Source: Polynucleobacter cosmopolitanus (lineage in GTDB: Bacteria > Pseudomonadota > Gammaproteobacteria > Burkholderiales > Burkholderiaceae). Taken from it: DNA of 64,000 nt. Where the stretch lies: positions 835,374-899,373 of the forward strand of contig NZ_NJGG01000001.1 in NCBI RefSeq assembly GCF_002224225.1, in the 5' to 3' direction. This document shows, piece after piece, positions 10,674 to 25,158 of the stretch. A model generated the notes under the pieces. The model was not told the origin of the DNA and made no database searches. It saw only the letters and a program-made list of their open reading frames with translations. Position 1 is the first letter of the stretch; each line of letters begins with the position of its first letter. The translations under genes were made by a program, and so were the position numbers.

Positions 10674-12340
10674 TATTGTTGATTGGCTTCTATGAGTTTT
10701 TCTATCATCACGGGATCAATGCGAGTCATCAAGTGCTGATAAGGATTGATCGCTTGCTTAGAGGATAGAGATTTGTTCACATCTTCCCAAGACATTGGTG
10801 ATATGTTGAAGAATTTCTCAACACCCGCAGCCACATTGGGAACCACGGGTTTGAGGTACAAGGTCAAGCGTCTGAACGCTTCCAATGTGATGCTGCAGAT
10901 GGTTTGTAGTTCTTGTTCTTTGCTAGGATCTTTAGCGATTTCCCATGGCTTGTTACTGTCAACAAATCCGTTGACTAAGTCAGCCAATTCCATCACGCGA
11001 CGCAAAGCTTTTGCGTATTCACGAGTTTCGTACAAATCTGCGATTTCATCTTTGGCATCGGCCAACTGACCCAGTAATGGATGGCTCATGGCTGCATCAT
11101 CAACGATGCCACCAAAGCGTTTGACCAAGAAGCCTGCGCTGCGACTGGCGATGTTGATGTATTTGCCTAATAAGTCACTGTTCACGCGCGCAGTGAAGTC
11201 TTGTAAATTCAAGTCCAAATCTTCCATGCTGGCATTCAACTTAGCTGCAAAGTAATAGCGCAACCACTCAGGATTTAAGCCACATTCAATCACGCTGTGG
11301 GCGGTGATGAAAGTGCCGCGTGACTTGCTCATCTTTTCGCCATCAACCGTTAAGAAGCCATGAGCAAAAACATTGGTAGGTGTGCGGTAGCCAGAGAAAT
11401 GCAAAGTCGCTGGCCAGAACAAAGTATGGAAGTACAAAATATCTTTACCAATGAAGTGATACTGTTCAGTGGTCGTGTCTGGTTTGGTCCATTCGTTAAA
11501 GTCCAGACCTTTTTGTTGGCAGAGATTCAAAAAGCTCGCGTAGTAGCCAATCGGTGCATCTAGCCACACATAGAAATACTTGCCTGGGGCATCTGGAATC
11601 TCAAAGCCAAAGTAGGGGGCATCTCTAGAAATATCCCAATCACCTAATTGGCTCTCACCTGGCTCACCTACCCATTCTTTCATTTTGTTGCGAGCTTCAG
11701 CTTGCAAAGGGGTTTTTACTTGAGTCCAATCTCTTAAAAACTTTTCGCAACGCGGGTCAGATAACTTGAAGAAATAGTGATCGGATACTTTGCGAATCGG
11801 TGTTGCACCGCTCACAACTGAGAATGGGTTCTTTAAATCTGTAGGGGCGTAAGTCGCGCCACACTTTTCGCAAGAATCACCATATTGATCTTTGGCGCCA
11901 CACTTGGGGCACTCACCTTTGATGAAGCGATCTGGCAAGAACATTTCTTTGACGGGATCATAGGCTTGCTCAATGGCGCGCTTCTCAATCAAACCAGCAT
12001 CACGCAGCTTGATATAGATTTCTTCTGAAAGTATTTTGTTTTCGGCGCTGTCTGTTGAGTAGTAGTTATCAAAAGAGACCAAGAAATTATCAAAATCTCT
12101 TTTATGTTCTTTCCAAACATTGGCAATCAGCTCTTTGGGCGTGATGCCTTCTTTCTCGGCGCGCAACATGATCGGAGTACCATGCGTATCATCTGCGCCT
12201 ACGTAGTGAACTTCGTGTCCACGCATTCTTTGGAAGCGCACCCAAATATCGGTTTGAATGTATTCCACCAAGTGACCAATATGAATTTGACCATTGGCAT
12301 AAGGGAGGGCTGAAGTGACTAAAATTTGGCGCATAGGCAT
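10673..12340 (-). CDS. metG: Methionyl-tRNA synthetase (short form)
   Basis: This enzyme charges tRNA(Met) in the cytoplasm. The HIGH motif is in [15 protein letters not shown] near residue 20. A zinc-knuckle insert has CPKC...CEKC near residues 149-166, and KMSKS is in [12 protein letters not shown] near residue 340. The anticodon-binding helical domain follows. The protein ends at about 555 residues with [19 protein letters not shown]. coli MetG (677) and most betaproteobacterial versions continue past this point into a C-terminal OB-fold dimerisation/tRNA-binding domain, which is absent here. The stop is followed at once by the SulP start with no relic of the domain. The Met two codons downstream is an alternative start. 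Confidence 0.95.
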
Positions 12341-12402: not shown

Positions 12403-13491
12403 GTGACGGTAACGGTAGAAAACATACAAAATGCGCTTAAAAGCGTTATAGATCCTAATACTGGCAAAGATTTGATTTCTTCTAAATCTGCTAAAAATAT
12501 CAAGGTTGATGGCTCAGATGTGAGTTTGGATGTGGTTTTGGCCTATCCAGCCAAGAGTCAGATTGACCTTATAAGAAAGTTGGTTATTACCGCCTTGCGC
12601 GAGGTTCCTGGGGTTAAAAACGTCAGCACCAATGTGACCATGAGCATTGTGGCTCACACCGTTCAGCGCGGCGTTAAGTTGCTTCCGAATGTAAAAAATA
12701 TCATCGCAGTATCAAGCGGTAAGGGTGGTGTGGGTAAATCCACCACGGCTGTTAACTTAGCGCTGGCCTTGGCTGCAGAGGGCGCCACAGTGGGTATTTT
12801 GGACGCTGACATCTATGGCCCAAGTCAGCCAATGATGTTAGGTATCACTGGCCGCCCTGAATCAATTGCTGAGAACACCATTGAACCGATGGAAGGCCAT
12901 GGCTTACAAGCAAGTTCGATTGGCTTTTTGATTGATCCAGATAGTCCGATGGTTTGGCGTGGTCCGATGGTCACATCGGCGCTTGAGCAGTTACTTCGTC
13001 AAACCAATTGGCGTGATGTGGATTATTTGATTGTTGACATGCCACCAGGCACAGGCGACATTCAATTGACCTTGTCTCAAAAAGTGCCAGTCACTGGGGC
13101 TGTGATTGTGACAACGCCTCAAGATATCGCTTTGTTGGATGCGCGCAAGGGTCTCAAGATGTTTGAGAAGGTCGGCATTCCGATCATTGGCATCGTTGAA
13201 AACATGAGCATTTATGTCTGCCCTAACTGTGATCATCAAGAACATATTTTTGGTCAAGGCGGTGGTCAAAAAATGTGTACGGACTACGGCGTTGATTTCT
13301 TAGGCAGTTTGCCTTTGAACTTGTCGATCCGTGAACAAGCTGATTCTGGTCGTCCAACGGTGGTGGCTGATCCTGATGGCGCCATCAGCGCCATCTACAA
13401 AGGAATCGCGCGCAAGATCGCGATTCAAGTGGCTGAGATGTCTAAGGATATGAGTAGTAAGTTCCCTAGCATTGTTGTGCAGAACACCTAA
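12403..13491 (+). CDS. apbC: Iron-sulfur cluster carrier ATPase ApbC/Mrp
   Basis: A 362-residue P-loop protein that binds and transfers Fe-S clusters in the cytoplasm. The N-terminal MIP18-like (DUF59) domain covers residues 1-85. The deviant Walker A is [21 protein letters not shown] near residue 107. VDMPPGTGD is the Walker B region, and [11 protein letters not shown] carries the CxxC that bridges a cluster between two subunits. The start is GTG at 12403 with a good ribosome site (aggaga, 12392-12397). It is divergent from metG. The formate dehydrogenase accessory gene DUF3305 begins 4 bp after its stop. Confidence 0.94.
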
Positions 13492-13494
13492 ATC

Positions 13495-14016
13495 ATGAAG
13501 CTAAAACTTGCCGTCGTGATGCGCAAAGACTTCTTGGATAACCCATGGCAGTCTTATCGTTGGGTTTTGGATGAAGTTGTTTATGACGTCGGCCAGTTCG
13601 CACACAAAACACCTGATCACATTCTTTCTGATCGTCCTGCGATGTGCATGCGAAGCGATGAGAAAACCGAACGATGGCTTTACACAGGTTTTGAAATTCA
13701 GTTATACAAGGATGAGGCAGAAGGTTATTACTTAAATTCAACATCGACAAAGCCAGCATGGTTTGTGATGTGGCGTCTTGAGGATCATCCAGATGGTGGC
13801 GATCCAATCGCTGTCCCTCATTTCTTGAGCATCAGTTACTACGAAGCGGGACGTTTGCTTGATGGTGGTGAAACGGTTGAGAATGTTCCTTTGGATCCTG
13901 ATACTTCTGCTTGGTTGGCTGATTTTGTTACAGAAAACTACAAGCCTGAGCCTAAGAAACGTGCTCGCCCCGTTTCATTCAAGGGTGCGCATAGACCAAA
14001 AGATGAGGCAAGCTAA
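13495..14016 (+). CDS. DUF3305 family protein, formate dehydrogenase region
   Basis: A 173-residue soluble protein with no signal peptide. Conserved-looking aromatic blocks include NPWQSYRWVLDEVV, RWLYTGFEIQLYKDEAEGYYLN and PAWFVMWRLED. It matches the DUF3305 family, recurrent beside DUF3306 and formate dehydrogenase genes in betaproteobacteria. No biochemical function is established. It begins 4 bp after apbC and shares one base (TAATG) with the next gene. A role in maturation or assembly of the dehydrogenase is inferred from its constant neighbours. Confidence 0.82.
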   Translation: MKLKLAVVMRKDFLDNPWQSYRWVLDEVVYDVGQFAHKTPDHILSDRPAMCMRSDEKTERWLYTGFEIQLYKDEAEGYYLNSTSTKPAWFVMWRLEDHPDGGDPIAVPHFLSISYYEAGRLLDGGETVENVPLDPDTSAWLADFVTENYKPEPKKRARPVSFKGAHRPKDEAS

Positions 14017-14717
14017 TGGCTGGTTTTTTAAATCGTTGGTCCAAAAAGAAATTAGGTGCAGAGCCTGAGTTATCGCCTTCAGAATTGGCTGAGAAGCAAT
14101 TACCTGCCCAATTAAAAAAATCAGCTGATACGTCTGCCAAAGATGCAAAAGACTCAGTATCGGGCGAGCAGTCATCCGAAAAAAATATAGAGCCAGTGGC
14201 CGCCGCGGCTCAAGCGCAGGAAGCTGCGCCAACGCTTGAAGATGTTCTTAAACTCACCAAAGATTCTGATTTCTCTGCATACGTCAAGCCAGGCATTGAT
14301 CCTGAAGTACAAAAGGCGGCCATGCAAAAGCTCTTTTCAGATCCGCGCTACAACATCATGGATGGCTTAGATATTTACATTGATGATTATTCAAAGCCTG
14401 ACCCAATTCCTCTAGAGATGCTCAAGAGAATGAATCAATCAAAAATGCTTGGTTTATTTAAAACAGATGAAGAAAAACTGGCGGATGAAGAGGCTGAGCG
14501 AATTGAAAGAGCCGATTATTACGAGCGTTTGAAAGTTTTGGAGGACAAAGAGGCTGCAGATGAGAAAGCTCTTGCTGATGCAAATTCAGAGACTGATGTA
14601 AGCCCTAGTGCTATAAATGCTGAAAATTCGGCAAAATCACCAGAATTGACTGATTCTCAAGAATCAACAGAAGTTCCAGTGGTTAAAGCAGAAGTAAAGA
14701 CTCAAACAAAAACATAA
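14016..14717 (+). CDS. DUF3306 family protein, formate dehydrogenase region
   Basis: A 233-residue acidic protein. It starts with the family mark MAGFLNRWSKKKLGAE. Residues 20-70 are low-complexity and Ala/Ser/Glu-rich. The conserved core (about 73-145) contains LEDVLKLTKDSDFSAYVKPGID, QKAAMQKLFSDPRYNIMDGLDIYIDDYSKPDPIP and a helical end. The tail is acidic and repetitive. DUF3306 proteins pair with DUF3305 in formate dehydrogenase clusters; function unknown. The start overlaps the DUF3305 stop by one base. The disordered ends suggest a scaffold or adaptor, which is a guess. Confidence 0.82.
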   Translation: MAGFLNRWSKKKLGAEPELSPSELAEKQLPAQLKKSADTSAKDAKDSVSGEQSSEKNIEPVAAAAQAQEAAPTLEDVLKLTKDSDFSAYVKPGIDPEVQKAAMQKLFSDPRYNIMDGLDIYIDDYSKPDPIPLEMLKRMNQSKMLGLFKTDEEKLADEEAERIERADYYERLKVLEDKEAADEKALADANSETDVSPSAINAENSAKSPELTDSQESTEVPVVKAEVKTQTKT

Positions 14718-14728
14718 TTAGTTAATCG

Positions 14729-14748
14729 AACCAGGCCTAGGCCTGGTT
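14729..14748. repeat. 20-bp perfect palindrome between DUF3306 and ferredoxin genes
   Basis: Two 10-bp arms (14729-14738 and 14739-14748) are exact reverse complements with no spacer. In RNA this folds as a GC-rich hairpin with a tight loop. It is followed by TTGTTG rather than a T tract, so it would be a weak terminator at best. It may instead slow ribonucleases or be an operator. It lies 12 bp past the DUF3306 stop and 50 bp before the next start. Confidence 0.55.
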
Positions 14749-14797
14749 GTTGAATATAAAAAGCCAGGTGTATTGATTAAATGGCTGAAGGCAGAGG

Positions 14798-16909
14798 ATG
14801 ACAAAGAAGACGCTCGTTTGTAGCTGTAATCAAACCATGCCCATAGATATCGTTCAGATAGCTAAGGGGATGGGGGTCGACAGCAAAAACATTTCACTCA
14901 ATAACGCTTTGTGCCGCCAAGAGGTGGGTACTTTTATTGCTGCCTCTCAGGGGTCGGACGAGATTGTGCTCGCTTGTACTCAAGAAAAGCGCTTGTTTGA
15001 TGAAGTCGCCAGTGAGCAAGAAAAGCCACTGATTGCCCCAATCAAGTTTGTGAATATCCGTGAGACTGGTGGTTGGTCTGCCGATGCGAAAAATGCCATG
15101 CCAAAGATCGCGGCCTTGTTAGCAATGGCATCTTTGCCTGAGCCAGATTCAGTGAATACAGTCAGCTATCAAAGTGGTGGTCGTGTATTGCTGATTGGCC
15201 CAGGAGATGCAGCGATTCAATGGGCAGAACGTTTATCAAAAAACATGAGCGTTGGCGTGCTGTGCACAGAAAAAGGTTCTTTGCCGCAGCTTCGTGACTT
15301 TCCTGTTTACAGCGGCAAGATCAAAAACCTCAAGGGTTATCTTGGCGCATTTTCGGTTGAGTGGACTCAAGAGAACCCGATCGATCTAGAGTTATGTACT
15401 CGGTGCGGCGCTTGTGTGGATGCTTGCCCAGAAGATGCAATTGATCTTAGCTATCAAATTGACTTGAACAAATGTAAGAGCCATCGCTCTTGCGTGAAAG
15501 CATGCTCTGCAATTGGTGCAATCAATTTTGATCGTGTTGACACAAGTCGCACGGACTCTTGGGATTTGATTTTTGATTTATCAAAAGATCCAATCTTGAA
15601 GATGAGTCAACCACCACAAGGTTATTACGCTCCAAAATCAGATCCATTGGATCAAGCCATTGCTGCATCTGAATTGATGGGCATGGTGGGTGAATTTGAA
15701 AAGCCGAAGTTTTTTGCCTACAACGACAAAGTATGTGCTCATGGTCGCAACGGTAAGGTTGGTTGTTCTGCTTGCGTGGATGTTTGCTCGACCAAGGCTA
15801 TTGAATCTCAATTTAGAGATGGTAAGGGCACGGTCAAGGTCAATCCAAATCTTTGTATGGGTTGCGGAGCTTGTGCGACGGTGTGCCCATCTGGTGCGAT
15901 GCGTTATAACTATCCAAGCGTTCCTTATCAAGGTCAGCAGGTCAAAGTGATGGCCAAGGCTTATCAAGCTGCTGGTGCAAAACTTGCGCCTAGCTTGTTA
16001 TTGCACAGCAATGGTAAGGGTCAAGAGTTGATTCAGTCTTTGGGTCGACTTGCAGCCACTGATAAAGCTAATTTCAAGGGCATGCCCGCGCATTTAATTC
16101 CATTTGGTTTGCATCACAGTGCATCAACTGGTATGGACTTGTGGTTGGGTAGTTTGGCTCATGGTTTTGCTCAAGTGGCTATTTTATTGAGCGGTGAAGA
16201 AGCGCCTGAATATCAGCAAGCATTAACAACACAGGTGACTGTTGCGCAATCCATGCTTGAAGGTTTGGGTTACGCCAAAGACAGCATTGTTCTCTTGCAA
16301 GCTGACAGTGCTCAAGCATTGGAAAAACAATTTGTGGCCTTGCCAGCAAAAGCAGCGTTATGTCCAGCAGCAACTTTTGCTTTTGCCAATGAGAAGCGTG
16401 AAACATTAGAAGCTGCTTTAGAGCATTTGATGTTGCACGGTTCTATCAAGGTCACTGCTGAGAAGCCTCTGACTCTAGCAACAGGCTCTCCAATTGGTGG
16501 TGTGCTTGTCAATAAAGATGCTTGTACTTTGTGCATGTCTTGTGTGGGCGCCTGCCCTGAAAGTGCTTTGCGAGATAACCCAGATGCGCCTCAGTTATCG
16601 ATGATTGAGCGCAACTGCGTGCAATGCGGTTTGTGTGTTCAAACGTGTCCAGAAAATGCTTTGACATTAGCGCCGCGTTTGCAAACCACTGAGATCAGAA
16701 AAAAAACAGTGGTTCTCAATGAAACAAAACCTTTCCACTGCGTCAGTTGTGGCAAAGCATTTGGTACTTTGAAGATGGTTGAATTGATGGTTGGTAAGTT
16801 GTCTTTGCACGCAGCCTTCTCGGGCGCTGCCACTGAGCGTCTCAAGATGTGCAGTGACTGCCGAGTGGTTGACATGATGAATAAACCTAACGATAACGAT
16901 GTGGTCTGA
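14798..16909 (+). CDS. Multi-cluster 4Fe-4S protein of the formate dehydrogenase region
   Basis: A 703-residue cytoplasmic protein with at least five ferredoxin-type sites. CTRCGACVDACPE lies near residue 200, with a modified partner CKSHRSCVKACS just after. GCSACVDVC and CMGCGACATVCPSGA lie near 320-370. CTLCMSCVGACPE and CVQCGLCVQTCPE lie near 575-620. A last CVSCGKAFG plus CSDC pair sits at the C-terminus. Cysteines near the N-terminus (CSCNQTMP) could hold another site. It occurs with DUF3305/3306 and TorD in formate dehydrogenase clusters and overlaps the TorD-like start by one base. It probably carries electrons to or from the enzyme or its maturation; its partner is unknown. Confidence 0.85.
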   Translation: MTKKTLVCSCNQTMPIDIVQIAKGMGVDSKNISLNNALCRQEVGTFIAASQGSDEIVLACTQEKRLFDEVASEQEKPLIAPIKFVNIRETGGWSADAKNAMPKIAALLAMASLPEPDSVNTVSYQSGGRVLLIGPGDAAIQWAERLSKNMSVGVLCTEKGSLPQLRDFPVYSGKIKNLKGYLGAFSVEWTQENPIDLELCTRCGACVDACPEDAIDLSYQIDLNKCKSHRSCVKACSAIGAINFDRVDTSRTDSWDLIFDLSKDPILKMSQPPQGYYAPKSDPLDQAIAASELMGMVGEFEKPKFFAYNDKVCAHGRNGKVGCSACVDVCSTKAIESQFRDGKGTVKVNPNLCMGCGACATVCPSGAMRYNYPSVPYQGQQVKVMAKAYQAAGAKLAPSLLLHSNGKGQELIQSLGRLAATDKANFKGMPAHLIPFGLHHSASTGMDLWLGSLAHGFAQVAILLSGEEAPEYQQALTTQVTVAQSMLEGLGYAKDSIVLLQADSAQALEKQFVALPAKAALCPAATFAFANEKRETLEAALEHLMLHGSIKVTAEKPLTLATGSPIGGVLVNKDACTLCMSCVGACPESALRDNPDAPQLSMIERNCVQCGLCVQTCPENALTLAPRLQTTEIRKKTVVLNETKPFHCVSCGKAFGTLKMVELMVGKLSLHAAFSGAATERLKMCSDCRVVDMMNKPNDNDVV

Positions 16910-17565
16910 TGAGTGATATGGAAAAAAAATTAGATGAAGAAGTCACTGCTTTAAGTGCAGATGGATTAGAGGAAGACGTTGCTCGCGCAGACCTTTATGG
17001 CCTGTTGGCAACACTTTTTTATCAAGCACCAGACGATGACTTATTGCACCGTATTGCCGCATCTGCTGCCTATGGCACTGGATCCGAGGCGCCTGACAGC
17101 GCAGCCTTGACTCAAGCCTGGGATGAATTGGTCAGAGTTGCTTCATCCTCGACTGCTCAAGAATGGGCAGATGAATATCAAGAGCTCTTTATTGGTATCG
17201 GTAAACCTGAAGTCTTTTTATACGGTTCTTATTACCAATCAGGCTTTTTGAATGAAAAACCATTGGTACGCTTGCGTGACTCTCTTAAAGAGTTAGGCTT
17301 GGAAGCTGCTGAAAATATCACGGAGAGTGAAGATCACATTGCCTCCTTGTGTGAGGTGATGCGCTATTTGATCGCCGGTGATGATTTGGCAATTGCTAAC
17401 TTGACGCAACAGAAAAAGTTTTTTGATGAACATTTGCGTTCTTGGGTGCAGGAATTGTGCGATGCAACAGAAGTACACCCCATGGCCAATCATTACAAGT
17501 CAGTTGCCATGTTGGCTAAAGCCTTTTTTGAGGTCGAGGCTTATGCCATGGACATGGTCGAATAA
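16909..17565 (+). CDS. TorD-family molecular chaperone for formate dehydrogenase
   Basis: A 218-residue all-helical protein of the TorD/DmsD family. RADLYGLLATLFYQAPDDDLL near residue 25 is the typical N-terminal helix. The mid-region carries EYQELFIGIGKPEVFLYGSYYQSGFLNEKPLVRLRDSL, and the late helix contains MANHYKSVAMLAKAFFEVE. Such chaperones bind Tat signal peptides and help insert the bis-MGD cofactor before export. The likely client is the catalytic subunit encoded 460 bp downstream. A terminator follows, so it ends one transcription unit. Confidence 0.88.
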   Translation: MSDMEKKLDEEVTALSADGLEEDVARADLYGLLATLFYQAPDDDLLHRIAASAAYGTGSEAPDSAALTQAWDELVRVASSSTAQEWADEYQELFIGIGKPEVFLYGSYYQSGFLNEKPLVRLRDSLKELGLEAAENITESEDHIASLCEVMRYLIAGDDLAIANLTQQKKFFDEHLRSWVQELCDATEVHPMANHYKSVAMLAKAFFEVEAYAMDMVE

Positions 17566-17608
17566 CGCTATAAAAAATCAATCTACTTTTTACCTAAGCA
17601 TTATTGGA

Positions 17609-17643
17609 AAAAGGCTTGCCGATTAAGAATCAGCAAGCCTTTT
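17609..17643 (+). terminator. Intrinsic terminator after the TorD-like gene
   Basis: An 11-bp stem (17609-17619 with 17633-17643) continues as an inner gatt/aatc pair. A-rich sequence precedes it and TTTT ends it. It lies about 45 bp after the TorD-like stop. The 135 bp between it and the next start (17644-17780) hold no gene and should contain the promoter of the structural formate dehydrogenase genes, but I could not settle on one promoter match there. Confidence 0.75.
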
Positions 17644-17780
17644 GAGTTAGGGAAACCCCTAGTCAAGTATTTGGTTTGTCGTGTGCAAAAAAAATAATAA
17701 ACGTTTATAGTTAGACCATAAATGCAAGTGTTACTTTTGTAATTTAGTGGCAGATTGTTAAGAATTAATAGGAGATAGTT

Positions 17781-17978
17781 ATGAGTGAAAACAAACACAA
17801 AGATTCGCGCAGAAAATTCTTTGTTACAGCAGGTGTTACTGCAGGCGCAGTAGCTGTTGTGTCTCAAACACCATTGGGAACAGCCATCGCTGAACAAGCC
17901 TCTACCATGATTGAAGATAGCAAGGGTTACAAGCTTTCTGATCATGTCCGTAAATATTACAAAACTACACTCGTTTAA
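17781..17978 (+). CDS. Formate dehydrogenase region Tat-signal mini-protein
   Basis: A 65-residue protein with a twin-arginine signal (DSRRKFFVTAG, residues 8-18) and a hydrophobic stretch. A short mature part of about 25 residues follows (IEDSKGYKLSDHVRKYYKTTLV). It matches the small TIGR02811-type 'formate dehydrogenase region TAT target' proteins always encoded just before the catalytic subunit. Its job is unknown; it might be a small periplasmic subunit or an export partner. A ribosome site (ggagat) precedes the ATG. Its last codons form the left arm of a strong terminator. Confidence 0.87.
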   Translation: MSENKHKDSRRKFFVTAGVTAGAVAVVSQTPLGTAIAEQASTMIEDSKGYKLSDHVRKYYKTTLV

Positions 17979-17999
17979 TTTTTAAACGAGTGTTTTTTT
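17967..17999 (+). terminator. Intrinsic terminator inside the formate dehydrogenase operon
   Basis: A perfect 10-bp stem (17967-17976 with 17984-17993) with a 7-nt loop is followed by seven T residues. The left arm lies within the last codons and stop of the Tat mini-protein gene. It is only about 30 bp before the fdhA start, so fdhA must be reached by read-through. That would give more mini-protein mRNA than fdhA mRNA. Confidence 0.8.
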
Positions 18000-18028
18000 A
18001 TTTCTCTTGAATCTTTGAGGGTCTATCC

Positions 18029-21010
18029 ATGAGTCTGATTCGTAAAACATCACAACAAGCAGTTGCTGCTTCACGTCACTCCGCCCAAATGGTCGGTAGC
18101 TTAGCGCGCAGTTTGCAATCCGCGATCCCAATGATGGATCGTCGTACATTCCTTAAGCGCTCAGGCGTTGGTGTAGGTGTGGGTCTAGCCGCATCACAAC
18201 TAACCTTGGTGCAAAAAGCCAAAGCTTCTGCAGCAGCAAAGCTAGACGGCAAGGGCAAGATTGAAGTTAAACGTACTGTGTGTACACACTGTTCAGTTGG
18301 CTGTGCCATTGATGCAGTAGTTGAAAACGGCGTTTGGACTCGTCAAGAGCCAGTGTTTGATTCACCGATCAACTTGGGCGCACACTGCGCCAAGGGTGCG
18401 GCGATTCGTGAACACGGTCACGGTGAGTTCCGCTTGAAGTACCCAATGAAGCTTGTGAATGGCAAGTACGAGAAAATCAGCTGGGATCAAGCGCTTGACG
18501 AAATCACAGCAAAAATGAAGAGTTTGAAGAAGACTTCAGGTCCAGATTCATTGTTCTTCATCGGTTCATCAAAGTACAACAACGAGCAAGCCTACTTGCT
18601 ACGTAAGTTTGTTTCTTTCTTTGGTACAAACAACACTGACCACCAAGCGCGTATCTGTCACTCAACAACAGTGGCTGGTGTAGCGAATACTTGGGGTTAT
18701 GGCGCGATGACCAACAGCTATAACGATATGCAGAACTCTAAAGCTGCTATCTACATTGGTTCAAATGCTGCTGAAGCTCACCCAGTTTCTATGTTGCACA
18801 TGTTGCACGCTAAGGAAGCTGGTTGCAAAATGATTGTGGTTGATCCACGTTACACACGTACTGCTGCTAAAGCTGATCAATACGTGCGCATTCGTTCTGG
18901 TTCAGACATTCCATTCTTGTTTGGTGTGCTTCATCACATCTTCAAAAATGGTTGGGAAGATAAGAAATATCTTAACGACCGTGTTTACGGCATGGAAGAT
19001 GTTAAGAAGGATGTGCTTGAAAAGTGGACACCAGCAAAAGTTGAAGAAGCTTGCGGTGCAACTGAAGCTCAAGTATTCCAAGTTGCTAAGACGCTACATG
19101 AGAACCGTCCAGGAACAATCGTTTGGTGTATGGGTCAAACTCAGCACACCATCGGTAACGCGATGGTTCGTGCCTCATGTATCTTGCAATTGGCATTAGG
19201 TAACGTAGGTAAGACGGGCGGCGGTACAAACATTTTCCGCGGTCACGATAACGTTCAAGGTGCTACTGACGTAGGTCCTAACCCAGATTCATTGCCAGGC
19301 TACTATGGTTTAGCAGCAGGTTCATGGAAACATTACGCTGGCGTTTGGGATGTTGACTACGAGTGGATCAAATCTCAGTTTTCTCCAAACATGATGGAGA
19401 AATCAGGTACAACAGTTTCACGTTGGGTGGATGCTGTGCTTGAGAAGAATGAACTCATCGATCAAGACAATAACGTGAAGGGTGTGTTCTTCTGGGGCCA
19501 TGCTCCGAACTCACAAACTCGCGGTCTTGACATGAAGAAAGCCATGGACAAGTTAGAGTTGTTGGTTGTGGTTGATCCATATCCAAGTGCAACTGCTGCG
19601 ATGGCTGCAATGCAAGTAGACGGTGCTCAGGTTAACAAAGACCGTGCAGTTTATTTGTTACCTGCTTGCACACAGTTTGAAACTGTTGGTTCAGCAACTG
19701 CGTCTAACCGTTCAGTCCAATGGCGTGAAAAAGTGATTGATCCGTTATGGGAGTCAGTGCCTGACCACGTGATCATGCAAGCGATGGCTGACAAGCTTGG
19801 ATTTGGCAATGAGTTGTCTAAGAACTACAAGATGTTGAAGAGCAAGTACGCTGGTAAAGAGTGGAAAGAACCAGAAGTTGAATCCATCTTGCGTGAAATC
19901 AACAAGGCAGTATGGACAATTGGTTACACAGGGCACTCACCAGAGCGTCTAAAAGCTCACATGCGCATGATGCACGTGTTTGATGTGAAGACATTGAAGT
20001 CTAAGGGTGGTAAAGATCCAGTGACTGGTTACGATACAACTGGTGATTATTTCGGTTTGCCATGGCCTTGCTACGGTACACCTGAGATGAAGCACCCAGG
20101 TAGTCCAAATCTTTATGACACCAGCAAGCACGTGATGGATGGTGGCGGTAACTTCCGTGCAAACTTTGGTGTTGAAAGAGACGGTAAGACACTATTGGCT
20201 GAAAACGGTTCTCACTCCAAGGGCGCTGACATCAAAACTGGTTACCCAGAGTTTGATCATGCACTTGTGAAGAAACTTGGCTGGTGGGATGAGTTGACTG
20301 ATGCAGAGAAAAAAGCTGCTGAAGGTAAGAACTGGAAGACTGACGTTTCTGGTGGTTTGATACGTGTGATCATGAAGAACCACGGTTGCCATCCATTTGG
20401 TAACGCGAAGGCTCGTGCAGTTGTTTGGAACTTCCCTGATCCAATTCCACAGCACCGTGAGCCTTTGTATGGCACACGTCCTGACTTGATGGCGAAGTAC
20501 CCAACGCATGATGATAGAAAGACTGCATGGCGTCTTCCAATTCTTTACAAGTCTGTTCAAGAGAAGAATATTGCTGACAAGATGCATGAGAAGTTCCCAA
20601 TCATCCTTACCTCTGGTCGTTTGGTGGAGTACGAGGGTGGTGGTGAAGAGACTCGTGCAAACCCATGGTTGGCTGAATTGCAACAAGATAACTTTGTAGA
20701 GATCAATCCGGCAGCTGCTAACAAGCGCGGTATTCGTAACGGTGAGTATGTTTGGGTTAAATCTCCAACCGGCGCGAAGATCAAGGTGAAAGCTTTGGTG
20801 ACAGAGCGTGTTGCTGCAGATACGGCATTCATACCGTTCCACTTCTCTGGATGGTGGCAAGGTAAAGATATATTGGATGCTTATCCAAAAGGTGCTGCAC
20901 CGATCGTACGTGGTGAAGCTGTTAACACTGCAACAACATATGGTTACGACATTGTGACCATGATGCAGGAAACCAAGACAACAATTTGTCAGATTGAGAA
21001 GTTCGCTTAA
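18029..21010 (+). CDS. fdhA: Formate dehydrogenase catalytic (alpha) subunit, Cys type
   Basis: A 993-residue molybdopterin oxidoreductase that oxidises formate to CO2 in the periplasm. An unusually long N-region precedes the twin-arginine motif MDRRTFLKRSG near residues 36-46, so it is Tat-exported. A 4Fe-4S site CTHCSVGC starts near residue 85, with the fourth Cys in GAHCAKGA. The Mo/W ligand position is Cys210 in ARICHSTTV, where E. coli FdnG has selenocysteine; there is no in-frame TGA. The C-terminal dinucleotide-binding domain holds TSGRLVEYEGGGEETRANPWLAELQ. Codon use is strongly biased, suggesting high expression. The FeS subunit gene follows 25 bp later. Confidence 0.95.
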   Translation: MSLIRKTSQQAVAASRHSAQMVGSLARSLQSAIPMMDRRTFLKRSGVGVGVGLAASQLTLVQKAKASAAAKLDGKGKIEVKRTVCTHCSVGCAIDAVVENGVWTRQEPVFDSPINLGAHCAKGAAIREHGHGEFRLKYPMKLVNGKYEKISWDQALDEITAKMKSLKKTSGPDSLFFIGSSKYNNEQAYLLRKFVSFFGTNNTDHQARICHSTTVAGVANTWGYGAMTNSYNDMQNSKAAIYIGSNAAEAHPVSMLHMLHAKEAGCKMIVVDPRYTRTAAKADQYVRIRSGSDIPFLFGVLHHIFKNGWEDKKYLNDRVYGMEDVKKDVLEKWTPAKVEEACGATEAQVFQVAKTLHENRPGTIVWCMGQTQHTIGNAMVRASCILQLALGNVGKTGGGTNIFRGHDNVQGATDVGPNPDSLPGYYGLAAGSWKHYAGVWDVDYEWIKSQFSPNMMEKSGTTVSRWVDAVLEKNELIDQDNNVKGVFFWGHAPNSQTRGLDMKKAMDKLELLVVVDPYPSATAAMAAMQVDGAQVNKDRAVYLLPACTQFETVGSATASNRSVQWREKVIDPLWESVPDHVIMQAMADKLGFGNELSKNYKMLKSKYAGKEWKEPEVESILREINKAVWTIGYTGHSPERLKAHMRMMHVFDVKTLKSKGGKDPVTGYDTTGDYFGLPWPCYGTPEMKHPGSPNLYDTSKHVMDGGGNFRANFGVERDGKTLLAENGSHSKGADIKTGYPEFDHALVKKLGWWDELTDAEKKAAEGKNWKTDVSGGLIRVIMKNHGCHPFGNAKARAVVWNFPDPIPQHREPLYGTRPDLMAKYPTHDDRKTAWRLPILYKSVQEKNIADKMHEKFPIILTSGRLVEYEGGGEETRANPWLAELQQDNFVEINPAAANKRGIRNGEYVWVKSPTGAKIKVKALVTERVAADTAFIPFHFSGWWQGKDILDAYPKGAAPIVRGEAVNTATTYGYDIVTMMQETKTTICQIEKFA

Positions 21011-21035
21011 TAGCGGCGGAATTTAGGAGACGATA

Positions 21036-21665
21036 ATGGCAAGAATGAAATTTATCTGCGATTCAGAGCGCTGCATTGAGTGTAATGGTTGTGTAACAGC
21101 GTGTAAGAATGAGCATGAGGTACCTTGGGGCGTTAATCGCCGTCGTGTTGTAACAATTAACGATGGTGTGATTGGCGCAGAAAAATCAATCTCAGTAGCA
21201 TGTATGCATTGTTCAGATGCACCATGTATGGCTGTATGTCCAGTAGATTGCTTCTACAGAACTGATGAAGGTGTAGTGCTTCACGATAAAGATATCTGTA
21301 TCGGTTGCGGCTACTGTTCATATGCATGCCCATTCGGCGCGCCACAGTTCCCAAGCGCTGGCACATTTGGCCTACGTGGAAAAATGGACAAGTGCACATT
21401 CTGTGCTGGTGGTCCTGAGAAGAACGGTACTCAAGCAGAGTTTGAGAAGTACGGACGTAACCGCCTATCAGAAGGTAAGTTACCAGCCTGTGCTGAGATG
21501 TGTTCTACCAAAGCTTTGATTGGTGGTGATGGCGATGTGGTTGCAGATATTTTCCGCAATCGTGTTGTTAAGCGTCAATCAAATGGTAAAGCAGCTGGCG
21601 CCAACGTATTTGGTTGGGGTACTGCTTACGGTAAACCACAACAAGCTCCAGGAAAAAAATCATGA
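21036..21665 (+). CDS. fdhB: Formate dehydrogenase iron-sulfur (beta) subunit
   Basis: A 209-residue four-cluster ferredoxin. Cysteine groups in order are CIECNGCVTAC near residue 13, CMHCSDAPCMAVCP, CIGCGYCSYACP, and CTFCAGG with CAEMC. This is the standard four 4Fe-4S wire that passes electrons from the catalytic subunit to the cytochrome b. No transmembrane anchor or signal is present; it is presumably exported together with the Tat-borne catalytic subunit. GGAG precedes the ATG. The stop overlaps the lipoprotein start by 4 bp. Confidence 0.94.
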   Translation: MARMKFICDSERCIECNGCVTACKNEHEVPWGVNRRRVVTINDGVIGAEKSISVACMHCSDAPCMAVCPVDCFYRTDEGVVLHDKDICIGCGYCSYACPFGAPQFPSAGTFGLRGKMDKCTFCAGGPEKNGTQAEFEKYGRNRLSEGKLPACAEMCSTKALIGGDGDVVADIFRNRVVKRQSNGKAAGANVFGWGTAYGKPQQAPGKKS

Positions 21666-21895
21666 TTAAAAGAATTTCTTTAACTGCAGCTTTGATCGCA
21701 ACAACATTCACGCTTGGGGCATGTTCTGAAGTCCCTCAGACTGTTGTTGCAGCTAAAAAAGGTGATGAAAAAGCCTATGTAGCTGCTGACAACAAGTATG
21801 TTGAAAAAGGTTGGACTTCGGGCGATCAGGTTACTTGGGAAAAGCAACTTAAGACTCGCAGTCAAGGTCAAGACGATTACGTTAAAGCTAAGTAA
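21662..21895 (+). CDS. Small lipoprotein in the formate dehydrogenase operon
   Basis: A 77-residue protein with a lipoprotein signal: MIKR, hydrophobic core, lipobox LGAC (Cys at residue 21). The mature part is hydrophilic and Lys/Asp-rich (AYVAADNKYVEKGWTSGDQVTWEKQL), with no known fold. It overlaps fdhB by 4 bp and precedes the cytochrome b gene by 26 bp, so it is probably made with the complex. It might tether or cap the enzyme at the membrane; that is inference from position. I do not recognise the family. Confidence 0.78.
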   Translation: MIKRISLTAALIATTFTLGACSEVPQTVVAAKKGDEKAYVAADNKYVEKGWTSGDQVTWEKQLKTRSQGQDDYVKAK

Positions 21896-21921
21896 GTTAC
21901 TCGAGTAATTTAGGAGATAGT

Positions 21922-22965
21922 ATGAGAATTACAATAAGAAACTTACTCGCCAGCGTTGTACTTTCTGTAACAGCTTCAGTGGCATTTGCGCAGGGGGCAG
22001 CTCCTGCCGCAAAGCCACAAGTTGAGTCTGTGAATATTTTGGAAGTAAGTAAAGATGTTCAAGCCCAACGAGAGGCCGGCGAAAACAAACCTGGTAGCAA
22101 TCAACCAATCTGGAAAAATGCTAACTCTGATGTAGCTCACACAGTTAACTTTCCTAACAAGGAAATGGGTGTACTTATTCAGAAGTCTGGTCAGCAATGG
22201 CGCCTTATCCGTAACGGTGTGATCACTGTATGGGGCGGTTGGTTATTGGTGCTCATGGCTGGTTTGATTACAACAGTGTTTGTGATCAAAGGTCAGATTA
22301 AGTTGCATGAGCCAAAGACTGGAAGGTTGTTAAAGCGCTTTACAAGTCTAGAAAGATTTTCACACTGGTTAATGGCGTTCAGCTTCTTGGCGCTTGCATT
22401 TACAGGTATCTTTATTCTATGGGGCAAGTTCTTCTTGTTACCAATCATGGGTGGTGCTGCTTACGGCGCATTCTTGTTGGTGATGAAGAATATCCATAAC
22501 TTCACTGGTCCTTTGTTCACAGCAAGTATCCTTTTATTCTTCGTCTTGTACGTTAAAGACAATATTCCGAATAAAGGCGACTTAACTTGGATCGCTTCAT
22601 TTGGCGGATTATTGTCAGGTAAGCACATCCCATCTCACCGCTTCAATGCTGGTGAAAAGATTTGGTTCTGGGGTGGTGTAACAGTTCTTGGTTTAATTGT
22701 TTCAGCTTCAGGCTGGGTGTTAGACATGATTGTGCCAATCCCTGGTATTGAATACTGGCGTGGCACTATGCAGTTAGCTCACATTGTTCATGCTGTTGCC
22801 GCAATCATCATGACTGTCATGGCCATGGGTCACATCTATGTCGGTTCAATCGGCATGGAAGGTGCATTGCAAGGCATGAAGACTGGTTACGTTGACGAAG
22901 CTTGGGGCAAAGAGCACCATGAACTTTGGTATGACGATATGAAATCTGGAAAAATAAAATCATAG
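21922..22965 (+). CDS. fdhC: Formate dehydrogenase cytochrome b556 (gamma) subunit
   Basis: A 347-residue protein with a cleavable signal (ends SVAFA). A periplasmic segment of about 85 residues follows, then one membrane helix near 105-125 and a four-helix FdnI-type cytochrome b domain. The conserved ERFSHWLMAFSFLALAFTGIFIL contains a likely haem histidine; further candidate histidines are in KNIHNFTGP and LAHIVHAVAAI. It anchors the complex and passes electrons from the FeS subunit to quinone. Ribosome site GGAG precedes the ATG. The long N-terminal extension is larger than in E. coli FdnI (217) and common in the betaproteobacterial type. Confidence 0.92.
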   Translation: MRITIRNLLASVVLSVTASVAFAQGAAPAAKPQVESVNILEVSKDVQAQREAGENKPGSNQPIWKNANSDVAHTVNFPNKEMGVLIQKSGQQWRLIRNGVITVWGGWLLVLMAGLITTVFVIKGQIKLHEPKTGRLLKRFTSLERFSHWLMAFSFLALAFTGIFILWGKFFLLPIMGGAAYGAFLLVMKNIHNFTGPLFTASILLFFVLYVKDNIPNKGDLTWIASFGGLLSGKHIPSHRFNAGEKIWFWGGVTVLGLIVSASGWVLDMIVPIPGIEYWRGTMQLAHIVHAVAAIIMTVMAMGHIYVGSIGMEGALQGMKTGYVDEAWGKEHHELWYDDMKSGKIKS

Positions 22966-22985
22966 ATCCAAGAAAAGAGACAATT

Positions 22986-23297
22986 ATGAAAAAACTTTCA
23001 CTACTATTAGTCACATTATTAAGCTCTGGTTTCGTTTTTGCTAAGTTACCAGCTCCAACACCGGAAGCTGCCGCTGCTGCTGACTTGGCCAAAGCAAGAA
23101 CTGCACACGGTGACAAAGTTGGCGCATATCAACTTTGCAAGTCACAAAATGAAGTGGCTAACAAGTACAAAAAAGCTGGTGCTCCTGCACCTGCTGCTTG
23201 TGTGAACCCTGGCCCATTTGTTGCTCCTACAGCAGCTCCTGCACCAGCACCAGCTCCGGCTCCAGCTCCAGCTGCTGCACCAGCGGCTAAAAAGTAA
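22986..23297 (+). CDS. Exported Ala/Pro-rich protein in the formate dehydrogenase operon
   Basis: A 103-residue protein with a signal peptide (cleavage near GFVFA). A mature core of about 55 residues has two cysteines (YQLCKSQNEVANKY; PAACVNPGPF), and the C-terminal tail is made of Ala-Pro repeats ending in AAKK. The tail looks like a flexible periplasmic linker. It is the last structural gene before a terminator, 20 bp after the cytochrome b gene. The two cysteines could form a disulfide. I cannot assign a function. Confidence 0.75.
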   Translation: MKKLSLLLVTLLSSGFVFAKLPAPTPEAAAAADLAKARTAHGDKVGAYQLCKSQNEVANKYKKAGAPAPAACVNPGPFVAPTAAPAPAPAPAPAPAAAPAAKK

Positions 23298-23313: not shown

Positions 23314-23349
23314 AATCAGTAACTAAGTTATCTTAGTTACTGATTTTTT
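23314..23349 (+). terminator. Intrinsic terminator ending the structural formate dehydrogenase operon
   Basis: A perfect stem of about 14 bp (23314-23327 with 23332-23345) has a 4-nt loop and a T run. It lies 17 bp after the Ala/Pro-rich gene. fdhD begins 18 bp later with a GTG, so fdhD needs read-through or a promoter within the hairpin region. Confidence 0.85.
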
Positions 23350-23366: not shown

Positions 23367-24200
23367 GTGGTTAAATTATCCAAAGCCGTCGCGCCCTTGA
23401 TTCATGAAGTCAAAGTAGTGGATGAGCAGGGTCGTGAGAAACTTATTCATGTCCCTGGTGAGCGACCGCTCACTATTTATTTAGATAAAAAAGAATTGGT
23501 CACCCTCATGACACTTGGGGGAGCGCCAGAGGCGTTGATTTTGGGTTACTTGCGCAATCAACGCTTAGTACCCTCCATTGATTACATCGAGAGTATTCAG
23601 GTGGATTGGGACACAGAGTCAGCTGCCGTGACCACCAAGGGAAACACAGTTGATATTGAAGAAAAAACCAGTCGCAGAGTTGTGACAACCGGTTGCGGTC
23701 AGGGAACTATCTTTGGCGGAATCATGGATGACATTGATTCTATTCAGTTACCAATTAAAGCAGAAATAACAAAGCCGGCAATTTATGAAATCATTGACCA
23801 TATTAGAACCAGGTCATCGATATACAAGCAAGCAGGCTCTGTTCATGCTTGCGCCGTGTTTAAAAATAATGGGCAAAGCGTTGAGTTATTGCATTTCATT
23901 GAAGACGTGGGTCGTCATAATGCCGTTGATTCAATCGCTGGGTTGATGTGGCTTGATGAACAATCTGGTGAAGATTTAATTTTTTACACAACTGGCAGAT
24001 TAACTTCCGAGATGGTGATCAAGGGTGCGCAAATGGGCATCCCATTTTTATTGTCACGCTCAGGCGTAACAGCGATGGGTTTAGAGATGGCAAACAAGGT
24101 CAACATGACATTGTTCGGGCGTTGTAGTGGTCAGCATTATTTAATATACAGTGGCGTTAATCGAGTAAATACAAAGGAAGTAAATGTTCATACCGCGTGA
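23367..24200 (+). CDS. fdhD: Formate dehydrogenase sulfurtransferase FdhD
   Basis: A 277-residue FdhD that moves sulfur from IscS to the bis-MGD cofactor of formate dehydrogenase. The start is GTG 23367 after an aaagag ribosome site. Conserved blocks are GERPLTIYLD, the loop TTGCGQGTIFGG (Cys110), VHACAVFKN, FIEDVGRHNAVDSIAG and FYTTGRLTSEMVIKGAQMGIPFLLSRSG. E. coli FdhD has CGLCG in the loop; here only the first Cys remains (CGQG). It overlaps mobA by 17 bp, so cofactor synthesis and sulfuration are coupled. Confidence 0.93.
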   Translation: MVKLSKAVAPLIHEVKVVDEQGREKLIHVPGERPLTIYLDKKELVTLMTLGGAPEALILGYLRNQRLVPSIDYIESIQVDWDTESAAVTTKGNTVDIEEKTSRRVVTTGCGQGTIFGGIMDDIDSIQLPIKAEITKPAIYEIIDHIRTRSSIYKQAGSVHACAVFKNNGQSVELLHFIEDVGRHNAVDSIAGLMWLDEQSGEDLIFYTTGRLTSEMVIKGAQMGIPFLLSRSGVTAMGLEMANKVNMTLFGRCSGQHYLIYSGVNRVNTKEVNVHTA

Positions 24201-24780
24201 TGTGATTTCTGGTCTGGTGCTGTCTGGCGGTCAAGGTCGTCGTATGGGCGGCACTGATAAGGGCTTGCAGCCGTTCAAGGGTGCACCCATGGCGATGCAC
24301 ACCATCATGCGTTTAGAGCCTCAAGTAGATGTTGTGAAAATAAATGCTAATCGCAATTTGGCAGCTTACGAATCACTTGGAGTTTCTGTTTTGCCGGATG
24401 TGATTGGTGATTTTGCAGGCCCTCTAGCAGGTTTCCAGGCTGGCTTGGAAAACTGCGAGCATCCATACTTGGTGACAGTGCCTTGTGATTCTCCAAGATT
24501 CCCGATGGATTTGGTTGAGAAACTATCAGAAGCATTAATCATTCAGGATTTAGATTTGGCCTATGCTGCCACCATGGAAAATGGTGAGTTAAGAACTCAC
24601 CCAGTATTTGCTTTAATGAAGTCTTCTGTCACTGATTCTCTGCTGCCATTTTTATCTGGGGGCGGACGCAAGATTGATAAGTGGTTTGAAAGTATGAAAA
24701 CAAACTACGTGGTATTCGATGATGTTGCTGCTTTTGCCAATGTGAATACCGTGGAAGAGCTACGGGCACTGCAAGGTTAA
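24184..24780 (+). CDS. mobA: Molybdenum cofactor guanylyltransferase MobA
   Basis: A 198-residue nucleotidyltransferase that adds GMP to Mo-molybdopterin to make the guanine dinucleotide cofactor needed by the formate dehydrogenase. The nucleotide-binding loop is LVLSGGQGRRMGGTDKGLQPFKG near residues 12-34. LPDVIGDFAGPLAGFQAGLE and TVPCDSPRFP follow, the latter carrying the metal-binding Asp. The start lies 17 bp inside fdhD; no later ATG keeps the leading strand. Length matches E. coli MobA (194). Confidence 0.93.
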   Translation: MFIPRDVISGLVLSGGQGRRMGGTDKGLQPFKGAPMAMHTIMRLEPQVDVVKINANRNLAAYESLGVSVLPDVIGDFAGPLAGFQAGLENCEHPYLVTVPCDSPRFPMDLVEKLSEALIIQDLDLAYAATMENGELRTHPVFALMKSSVTDSLLPFLSGGGRKIDKWFESMKTNYVVFDDVAAFANVNTVEELRALQG

Positions 24781-24783
24781 GCA

Positions 24784-25158
24784 TTGAAGCGATTAATTTT
24801 GCAGCTTTGGCGCACCAGCGCTGATCAGCCAAATCTTGCAGTAACACCATTTTTAATGGCTTCCACTGCAGCTGCAATCAACTTCGACGTTGAAATCCAT
24901 GCGATTGGCGCGAGTGTCGACTTATTCATCAAAGCCAACCCCAAGAATCAGCAAATCGTTACGCCATCCAATCGTCCTTTATCTGCTTTTGTTGAGGATG
25001 CTATTCGAACAGGTGTAAAGATCAAGGTTTGCAGCACTGCTTTAAGAGATAGACAATTAGAGCTTGGTGACTTGGTTGAAGGAGTGACTGAGGTGATTGG
25101 GATGGTGACCATGATTGACCTTGCTACTAATTCAAATACCACCGTTTTTACCTATTAA
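24784..25158 (+). CDS. DsrE-like small protein
   Basis: A 124-residue protein with a probable TTG start (24784), 4 bp after mobA. The fold pattern looks DsrE/F-like: a first strand RLILQLW, a helix with PFLMASTAAAINFDVEIHAIG, and a central strand VDLFIKA. SAFVEDAIRTGVKIKVCSTALRD then matches the stretch where sulfur-relay members carry a reactive Cys (here Cys near residue 82). Position after fdhD-mobA suggests a link to sulfuration or the Mo/W cofactor, but this is inference. A distant DsrE-type sulfur carrier is my best guess. Confidence 0.6.
   Translation: MKRLILQLWRTSADQPNLAVTPFLMASTAAAINFDVEIHAIGASVDLFIKANPKNQQIVTPSNRPLSAFVEDAIRTGVKIKVCSTALRDRQLELGDLVEGVTEVIGMVTMIDLATNSNTTVFTY

Follow-up and report, generated by a model that had tools for sequence, protein, structure and literature searches.

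A candidate cytoplasmic maturation kit for the Tat-exported formate dehydrogenase of Polynucleobacter cosmopolitanus

What do the uncharacterized companions of an exported formate dehydrogenase (FDH) do, when several of them appear to remain in the cytoplasm while the enzyme leaves it by twin-arginine translocation (Tat)? The question is raised by a locus in a 64,000-nucleotide stretch (the window) of the 1.78-Mb genome of the freshwater bacterium Polynucleobacter cosmopolitanus (contig NZ_NJGG01000001.1, positions 835,374 to 899,373), where the genes for the catalytic, iron-sulfur (Fe-S), and cytochrome b subunits (fdhA, fdhB, and fdhC) follow those for a DUF3305 protein, a DUF3306 protein, and a 703-amino-acid (aa) multi-ferredoxin, here termed pfd, whose closest relatives are from Polynucleobacter (L002, 96% identity). 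We consider it rather probable that the module is an exported FDH3-type enzyme anchored in the membrane (FdhABC plus the small twin-arginine protein tat65) accompanied by a dedicated cytoplasmic maturation kit. Its members would be DUF3305, DUF3306, pfd, a TorD-like chaperone, FdhD, and MobA, along with the Fe-S cluster carrier Mrp/ApbC in this and some other lineages. The case for the kit is made by strict co-occurrence, uneven copy numbers, a locus at which helpers and enzyme are split, a gene fusion in Thiothrix, a cysteine quartet kept in 42 of 42 aligned pfd proteins, a link to Mrp, and the rarity of FdhE. An earlier note on this DNA had suggested a role in maturation for the multi-ferredoxin, which remains the best fit; its further suggestion, the loading of tungsten or molybdenum (W/Mo) or of sulfur, is less favored because FdhD and MobA are already encoded for it, and the evidence (Mrp neighbors) speaks for Fe-S or electron handling.

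Co-occurrence, copy number, and gene order

Across a phylum sample of 299 genomes from 153 genera, FDH3 beta subunits were called in 41 genomes (the weakest at 314.7 bits, the next protein below at 99.5), and DUF3305 and DUF3306 occur in the identical 41 genomes, representing 24 of the 153 genera, and in none of the 258 others. The pfd gene (searched with profile A1 at an E value of 1e-30, scoring the three best candidates per genome) is present in the same 41 genomes and in one of the 258 others, G219. The earlier note had proposed examining these genes for co-occurrence with Tat-type fdhA and for a wide spread in its absence: the former is what the sample returns, and the latter is not seen in it. 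The traits also vary jointly within groups, such that a genome of the same genus as the window (G150) and three of the five genomes of genus g77 are without all of them. Fisher tests of the co-occurrence gave tiny values that ignore relatedness.

A further sample of 185 genomes, drawn from 177 genera, contains DUF3305 in 22 genomes and FDH3 in 23, with both in 19, DUF3305 only in 3, and FDH3 only in 4. Six of the seven discordant genomes are left undecided by their assemblies: the DUF3305 contigs of G343, G379, and G465 end before fdhB, and in G378, G414, and G464, fdhB is at the edge of its contig or the contig is very short. The real exception is G430, in which pfd, a DUF3306 fragment, torD, tat65, and fdhABC are present and DUF3305 is truly lost.

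Copy numbers set the helpers apart from the enzyme. Two fdhB genes each are present in G240, G290, and G200, and each of these genomes has a second tat65 as well (a weak match in G200, 22.8 bits), so tat65 travels with the enzyme. A single pfd was found in each of these genomes, and DUF3305 and DUF3306 are single in G240, whose second copy consists of tat65–fdhA–fdhB–fdhC only, and in G290, where two tandem enzyme copies follow one helper set. This unevenness indicates that the helpers are not one-to-one subunits and can serve in trans.

Gene order was tabulated for 79 named loci (L002 to L080), mostly from Polynucleobacter and other Burkholderiales and many of them cut by contig ends; L028, a broken inverted copy in a single-cell assembly, was excluded from the argument. 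DUF3305, DUF3306, and pfd are present in 73 of the 79 loci, in this order on one strand in 71 (exceptions, L053 and L076). Downstream, the order pfd–torD–fdhA is kept in 70 of 71 loci (exception, L057), tat65–fdhA–fdhB in 54/55, fdhB–lipo77–fdhC in 58/58, fdhC–AP103 in 54/54, and fdhC–fdhD in 21/24 (lipo77 and AP103 being the small lipoprotein and the Ala/Pro-rich protein of Table 1). At L057, the helper set (mrp–d3305–d3306–pfd–torD–mobA–fdhD) is divergent from tat65–fdhA–fdhB–lipo77–fdhC. In Thiothrix lacustris (L080, positions 9566 to 11566), DUF3306 (residues 5 to 105, E 5.9e-22) is fused to pfd, the sole such case found.

Architecture of pfd

From its N terminus onward, pfd comprises a Cys4 set (C8, C10, C39, and C60), two ferredoxin domains (Fd1 and Fd2), an MvhD-like domain (residues 395 to 528), a third ferredoxin domain (Fd3), and a C-terminal Cys quartet (C648, C651, C685, and C688). 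We count six ferredoxin-type Cys motifs (one of which has just three Cys), in agreement with the "five or more" of the earlier note, and these cysteines and those of the terminal Cys4 sets are invariant in 17/17 aligned proteins; no export signal is visible by eye, which fits the cytoplasmic location that the note had assigned. Its generic multi-ferredoxin does hold real ferredoxin sites but is not a plain polyferredoxin: an AlphaFold model built from a 17-sequence alignment (pLDDT 88.3, pTM 0.83) shows a predicted soluble, flavin-less chain of HdrA-, MvhD-, and HycF-like parts.

Foldseek matched this model to HdrA (8rvu_A, E 3.7e-15; 5odc_A, E 4.1e-15) and to HycF (7z0s_F, E 5.3e-7), with an overall TM against HdrA that is low (~0.25) because the domains cannot be superposed together as a single unit. 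Taken part by part in VIA, residues 1 to 387 align on HdrA (8rvu_A; Z 13.0, 370 residues aligned, root mean square deviation [rmsd] 6.0, 24% identity), residues 395 to 528 on MvhD (5odh_D; Z 12.3, 127/137 aligned, rmsd 2.8, 11%), and residues 566 to 695 on HycF (7z0t_F; Z 9.5, 128 aligned, rmsd 2.6, 22%). Sequence searches agree weakly with this make-up. A profile of the N-terminal part matched HdrA alone in the PDB at E values up to 1 (best E 0.0017, a weak match); phmmer placed HycF on the C-terminal part (E 2.9e-7 over residues 572 to 689), ranked below general polyferredoxins; the FlpD/MvhD model matches 1 of 17 pfd members (E 0.0034); and Pfam by itself barely detects the HdrA and MvhD parts.

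Each likeness is partial. Like HdrA of methanogens, whose N-terminal Cys4 binds a cluster, pfd has the Cys4 pattern (CxC...C...C) and the fold; unlike HdrA, of which 370 of 643 residues are matched, it has the flavin motif GxGxxG in 0 of 17 rows, and HdrA-type electron bifurcation was rejected on account of this loss. Residues 395 to 528 share the fold of methanogen MvhD, which has Cys ligands for a [2Fe-2S] cluster, but no invariant Cys lies between C363 and C576 of pfd. Residues 566 to 695 share with HycF of formate hydrogenlyase two cluster motifs and the spacing CxxC-x33-CxxC (CxxC-x34-CPxC in HycF; CxxC-x32 to 34-CxxC in 17/17 pfd proteins). In contrast to HycF, this part is joined to other domains, and family searches of the operon genes gave neither a [NiFe] hydrogenase nor a membrane arm, with the window beyond these genes read as open reading frames only. 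In HycF, the quartet coordinates one metal, provisionally assigned as iron, close to the interface with FdhF, and Arg122 lies next to it (PMC9474812); at the corresponding site of pfd, 14 of 17 rows have Lys and the other 3 have Thr.

Among the 41 FDH3 genomes, pfd retains both the N-terminal domain and Fd1 in 7, the N-terminal domain without Fd1 in 23, and neither in 11 (short forms, in which the second Cys of Fd2b is also lost). Fd2, Fd3, and the C-terminal quartet are present in all 41 and in G219 (42/42 aligned). The short pfd of G219 (L092) lies beside a Tat catalytic subunit whose best models, ArrA and PhsA, score far below their cut-offs, in an operon that also encodes an FeS subunit, a membrane subunit that resembles NrfD by eye and matches HmcC weakly, and a TorD-like protein (PF02613, E 9.6e-11); the core of pfd may thus have a wider role among Tat molybdoenzymes. 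The G219 TorD-like protein (L092, 7846 to 8781) itself ends, by eye, in a CxxC...CxxC pair as pfd does.

As for the presumed partners of pfd, no export signal was seen by eye in DUF3305, whose predicted structure (pLDDT 90.8) has no Foldseek match among solved structures at E ≤0.001 and no VIA row at Z ≥2. It is odd that not even weak VIA rows appeared, and we draw no conclusion of a novel fold.

Mrp neighbors and the rarity of FdhE

Mrp (PF10609) is encoded in all 41 FDH3 genomes, 11 of which have two or more copies, and in 11 of these 11 one copy shares the strand of pfd and lies <1.5 kb downstream of it (six genomes in group f48, three in f18, and two in f41). A second Mrp occurs in 2 of 17 FDH3-negative genomes (all those sampled of f48, f41, and f31), namely, G175 of f48 and G191 of f31. 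Within f48, it is present in 6/6 FDH3 genomes versus 1/8 FDH3-negative genomes and, within f41, in 2/6 versus 0/2; f18 is without an FDH3-negative genome in the sample. At L098 (14605 to 16724, genome G067), the Mrp linked to pfd has as neighbors a DUF6494 gene and one resembling biotin/lipoate ligases (PF16917 plus DUF4444), and similar frames are seen by eye in G235 (L105).

FdhE is an accessory factor restricted to periplasmic FDHs and systematically associated with their operons (PMC10609526). It was not found (PF04216, E. coli control positive) in the genome studied here or in 39 of the 41 FDH3 genomes, being present in G246 and G287. The proposed kit would resemble FdhE in its accessory role and differs from it in being of unrelated family.

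The enzyme

Judged by its sequence, the enzyme is a Tat-exported, Cys-type FDH3 that stands near SoFdhAB, a W-enzyme of known structure from Shewanella oneidensis (PDB 9VAP): the beta subunit passes the FDH3 equivalog cut-off, FdhA carries a twin-arginine signal and C210, and FdhC, a formate dehydrogenase cytochrome b, has an N-terminal extension starting as a signal-like stretch (by eye). 9VAP is the top PDB match for both FdhA (1273.9 bits) and FdhB (309 bits), and the metal-ligand position, a Cys in both enzymes, is Cys in 68/68 aligned FdhA rows. The genome encodes two proteins with a Molybdopterin domain, FdhA and a 789-aa frame on contig 2 that is presumably NuoG. In Polynucleobacter necessarius PPGSP2 (L071), fdhA appears in the synteny table as two overlapping frames, and the FDH gene may be broken.

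SoFdhA is a Cys-W, oxygen-tolerant enzyme with gas tunnel and oxygen protection residues H653, V666, Y776, and T927, and SoFdhAB catalyzes both directions and holds one plus four clusters (PMC13397495). The four residues correspond to H689, V702, Y814, and T970 of the window FdhA, and among the 68 rows, these positions are H in 67, V in 65, Y in 57 (F in 7), and T in 64, with the remainder mostly gaps. Unlike SoFdhAB, the window operon adds the lipoprotein and the Ala/Pro-rich protein.

Precedents

The operon itself is already in print: Bay et al. (2015; PMC4464133) mapped TorD/DmsD-fdhGHI operons with DUF3305, DUF3306, fer4, and "fdh tat," that is, the same gene types around fdhGHI, although the passages of that paper on these operons give no fer4 domain make-up, no FDH3 co-occurrence, and no Mrp. 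That paper was the sole relevant match for DUF3305 and DUF3306 in the open-licence literature searched, and the passages returned contain neither the HdrA-MvhD-HycF make-up nor the Mrp paralogue nor the one-to-one co-occurrence.

By analogy, the nearest functional precedent for pfd would be NapF, a cytoplasmic protein with several [4Fe-4S] clusters that is needed in Rhodobacter for Fe-S assembly of the Tat-exported nitrate reductase (PMC10609526). Unlike NapF, pfd is far longer and consists of HdrA-, MvhD-, and HycF-like parts, and it scores 67.6 bits against a NapF cut-off of 102.2. HydN and YsaA are likewise precedents for ferredoxin-like FDH helpers (PMC6004506), and the TorD-family chaperone encoded near fdhA has a counterpart in FdhM of Campylobacter jejuni, a TorD homologue required specifically for FDH and encoded beside fdhA (PMC4148689).

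Proposed mechanism and competing explanations

We tentatively propose that pfd binds to the precursor of FdhAB before export, in the cytoplasm, by way of its HycF-like, quartet-bearing end. Once docked, it would supply or redox-tune Fe-S clusters, or supply electrons, with DUF3305 and DUF3306 as its partners; meanwhile, TorD would hold the signal peptide and FdhD would insert the sulfurated W/Mo cofactor. The loaded FdhAB would then exit by Tat, and the lipoprotein and the Ala/Pro-rich protein would be lineage-specific periplasmic additions.

Several observations weigh against a dedicated kit of this composition. Mrp lies within 3 kb of pfd in just 15 of 41 genomes, a second Mrp is present in just the two of six FDH3 genomes of f41, and the adjacency in the Polynucleobacter line may be an old metG–mrp neighborhood. 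The HdrA-like N terminus is missing from 11/41 pfd proteins and Fd1 from 34/41, so those parts are dispensable, and the MvhD part is unsupported by Foldseek alone (5odc_D, E 0.18). G430 keeps FDH3 without DUF3305, which is thus not strictly required; G200 doubles DUF3305 and DUF3306 along with the enzyme; and a second pfd could be missed in a search limited to the three best candidates per genome. Nor do the counts represent independent events, since the genomes sampled are related to one another. In the passages returned from the open-licence literature, neither mutants, interactions, nor metal contents are reported for pfd, DUF3305, or DUF3306, and SoFdhAB was obtained as an active dimer, with the host and helpers not stated in the passages describing it (PMC13397495).

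Other explanations can be set against the same evidence. One, possible if doubtful, is a sharper and nonexclusive version of the maturation kit: pfd and Mrp would form an Fe-S donor pair, in which Mrp fills a reservoir in pfd that supplies the five FdhAB clusters. Ferredoxin-type sites usually hold their clusters tightly, Mrp could serve the clusters of pfd itself instead, and the 11 genomes with short forms are without a nearby Mrp. Speaking for such a pair are the adjacency of Mrp and pfd (15/41, and 11/11 where an extra Mrp exists), the ApbC identity of the window Mrp, the NapF precedent, and the one plus four clusters of SoFdhAB (PMC13397495).

That pfd is instead a working electron partner of a cytoplasmic FdhAB pool, connecting the oxidation of formate or the reduction of CO2 with carriers in the cytoplasm, seems unlikely. 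All parts of pfd do resemble electron-transfer proteins, the nearest solved enzyme is bidirectional (PMC13397495), and the ferredoxin-like HydN and YsaA interact with FDH-H and raise its dye-linked activity (PMC6004506); yet FdhA bears a Tat signal, pfd has lost the flavin motif and is accompanied by TorD and, bar one genome seen, by DUF3305, and no electron-accepting cytoplasmic oxidoreductase is present among the operon genes searched.

It is quite improbable, though consequential, that pfd acts as a redox proof-reader, docking on finished FdhAB as HycF does on FdhF and taking formate electrons in a test turnover, after which a redox change at the Cys-quartet metal would release only active enzyme to Tat; if so, export would be gated by function and not by folding alone. 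Hardly credible is that every companion belongs to the mature complex as an additional subunit: operon position, the export signals seen by eye on the lipoprotein and the Ala/Pro-rich protein, and the tracking of fdhB copy number by tat65 in 3/3 duplicated genomes (one with a weak second match) fit this idea, whereas pfd, DUF3305, and DUF3306 show no export signal and were found once each in G240 and G290 despite the two fdhB genes there, the two exported proteins were found in a minority of FDH3 genomes (see below), and searches with FdhC, tat65, and lipo77 gave no further 9VAP chain, although the 9VAP enzyme is described as expressed as a dimer.

Small exported companions

The tat65 gene is present in 40 of 41 FDH3 genomes (counting matches that reach profile position ≥63; G111 is without it) and in none of the other sampled genomes; 23 of the 40 are above the TIGR02811 cut-off, and other matches to the tat65 profile span the Tat signal part only. 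Its relatives (60 listed) conserve a twin-Arg start and a YY-containing C terminus. Because of its presence in 40/41 genomes, tat65 appears a better candidate for a constant extra structural part than lipo77 or AP103. In Shewanella, SO4508 and SO4512 ("formate dehydrogenase accessory protein") are predicted Tat substrates, and deletion of either moderately lowers the growth rate, as does deletion of SO4509 or SO4513 (fdhA) (PMC3623810); their position and predicted Tat targeting lead us to infer that SO4508 and SO4512 are homologous to tat65.

A lipoprotein between fdhB and fdhC was found in 10/41 FDH3 genomes (7 by profile and 3 by a simple lipobox scan) and an AP103-type protein, whose relatives share a two-Cys core, in 7/41, with profiles built from Burkholderiales-type loci that divergent members may escape. 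The proposal that these two proteins are extra periplasmic subunits is weakened by such counts, and both look lineage-specific. Neither tat65 nor lipo77 has a credible match among solved structures.

Besides the Burkholderiales-type loci, three genomes from other classes (L089, L091, and L094) encode small lipoproteins between fdhB and fdhC, with cross-class homology suggested by eye only. Those of G280, G016, and G262 share position and lipobox with lipo77, are not picked up by its profile, and contain a Y..G.Y.G motif resembling that of Methyloversatilis L065 (by eye). Near the FDH genes of L089, L094, and L098 (G280, G262, and G067), a WD40-like repeat protein with CxxCH is encoded downstream of fdhC (by eye).

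Layout of the locus

The genes are ordered mrp–DUF3305–DUF3306–pfd–torD–tat65–fdhA–fdhB–lipo77–fdhC–AP103–fdhD–mobA (Table 1), with intergenic gaps of −17 to 80 bases between neighbors except for torD–tat65 (215 bases). All genes named in the earlier note were recovered on the + strand, with fdhD and mobA just outside the interval from 13495 to 23297 that it had covered; it had overlooked tat65, which brings its five companions to six small or uncharacterized ones, as well as mrp upstream. The hairpin at 17967 to 17993 is present in 9/9 close relatives checked, with changes in both arms, and was not seen in 5 more distant loci; together with that at 23314 to 23345, it may set helper and enzyme levels apart. 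Promoter-like sites are not enriched across the region (17 versus 21.2 in shuffles), and a tRNA search of the window found none. A DsrE-like gene (24784 to 25158; PF02635, E 1.6e-10) starts 3 bases past mobA; it was rejected as a sulfur donor to FdhD within the module, as it is present in just 3 of 79 fetched loci (L002, L005, and L042).

Table 1. Features of the formate dehydrogenase locus, in window positions
Feature	Position	Strand	Basis
Mrp/ApbC Fe-S cluster carrier (NUBPL-type P-loop NTPase)	12403..13491	+	PF10609 E 1.7e-104; ApbC equivalog 418 bits, cut-off 348; 3 bases upstream of DUF3305
DUF3305 protein, 173 aa	13495..14016	+	PF11749 E 3.6e-42
DUF3306 protein, 233 aa	14016..14717	+	PF11748 E 2.1e-33
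pfd, 703 aa, predicted flavin-less HdrA-MvhD-HycF-like chimera	14798..16909	+	Cys motifs, predicted structure, profile matches
TorD/DmsD-family chaperone	16909..17565	+	PF02613 E 6.2e-32
tat65, 65-aa twin-arginine protein, "formate dehydrogenase region TAT target"	17781..17978	+	TIGR02811 44.6 bits, just below cut-off 48.45
12-bp hairpin then T-run, overlapping tat65 stop, 5' of fdhA	17967..17993	+	
FdhA, catalytic subunit, Tat signal DRRTFLKRS, Cys ligand C210	18029..21010	+	best PDB match 9vap_A, 1273.9 bits
FdhB, FeS subunit, FDH3 beta	21036..21665	+	NF038355 332.8 bits, cut-off 240; 9vap_B 309 bits
lipo77, 77-aa small lipoprotein	21662..21895	+	lipobox LGAC, by eye
FdhC, cytochrome b	21922..22965	+	TIGR01583 162.7 bits, cut-off 115.85
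AP103, 103-aa Ala/Pro-rich protein	22986..23297	+	signal peptide by eye
14-bp hairpin and T-run, terminator-like end of structural unit	23314..23345	+	
FdhD sulfurtransferase	23367..24200	+	PF02634 E 3.4e-72
MobA	24184..24780	+	PF12804 E 3.9e-30

Significance

There is only a partial understanding of how formate dehydrogenases exported by Tat receive their Fe-S clusters and W/Mo cofactor, and the classical additional factor for periplasmic FDHs, FdhE, was not found in 39 of the 41 FDH3 genomes. The analysis names a tightly linked set of candidate genes and gives the multi-ferredoxin a concrete predicted architecture with a predicted docking end. Such a set may aid the production of oxygen-tolerant W-FDHs, which are of interest for CO2 reduction, in other hosts.

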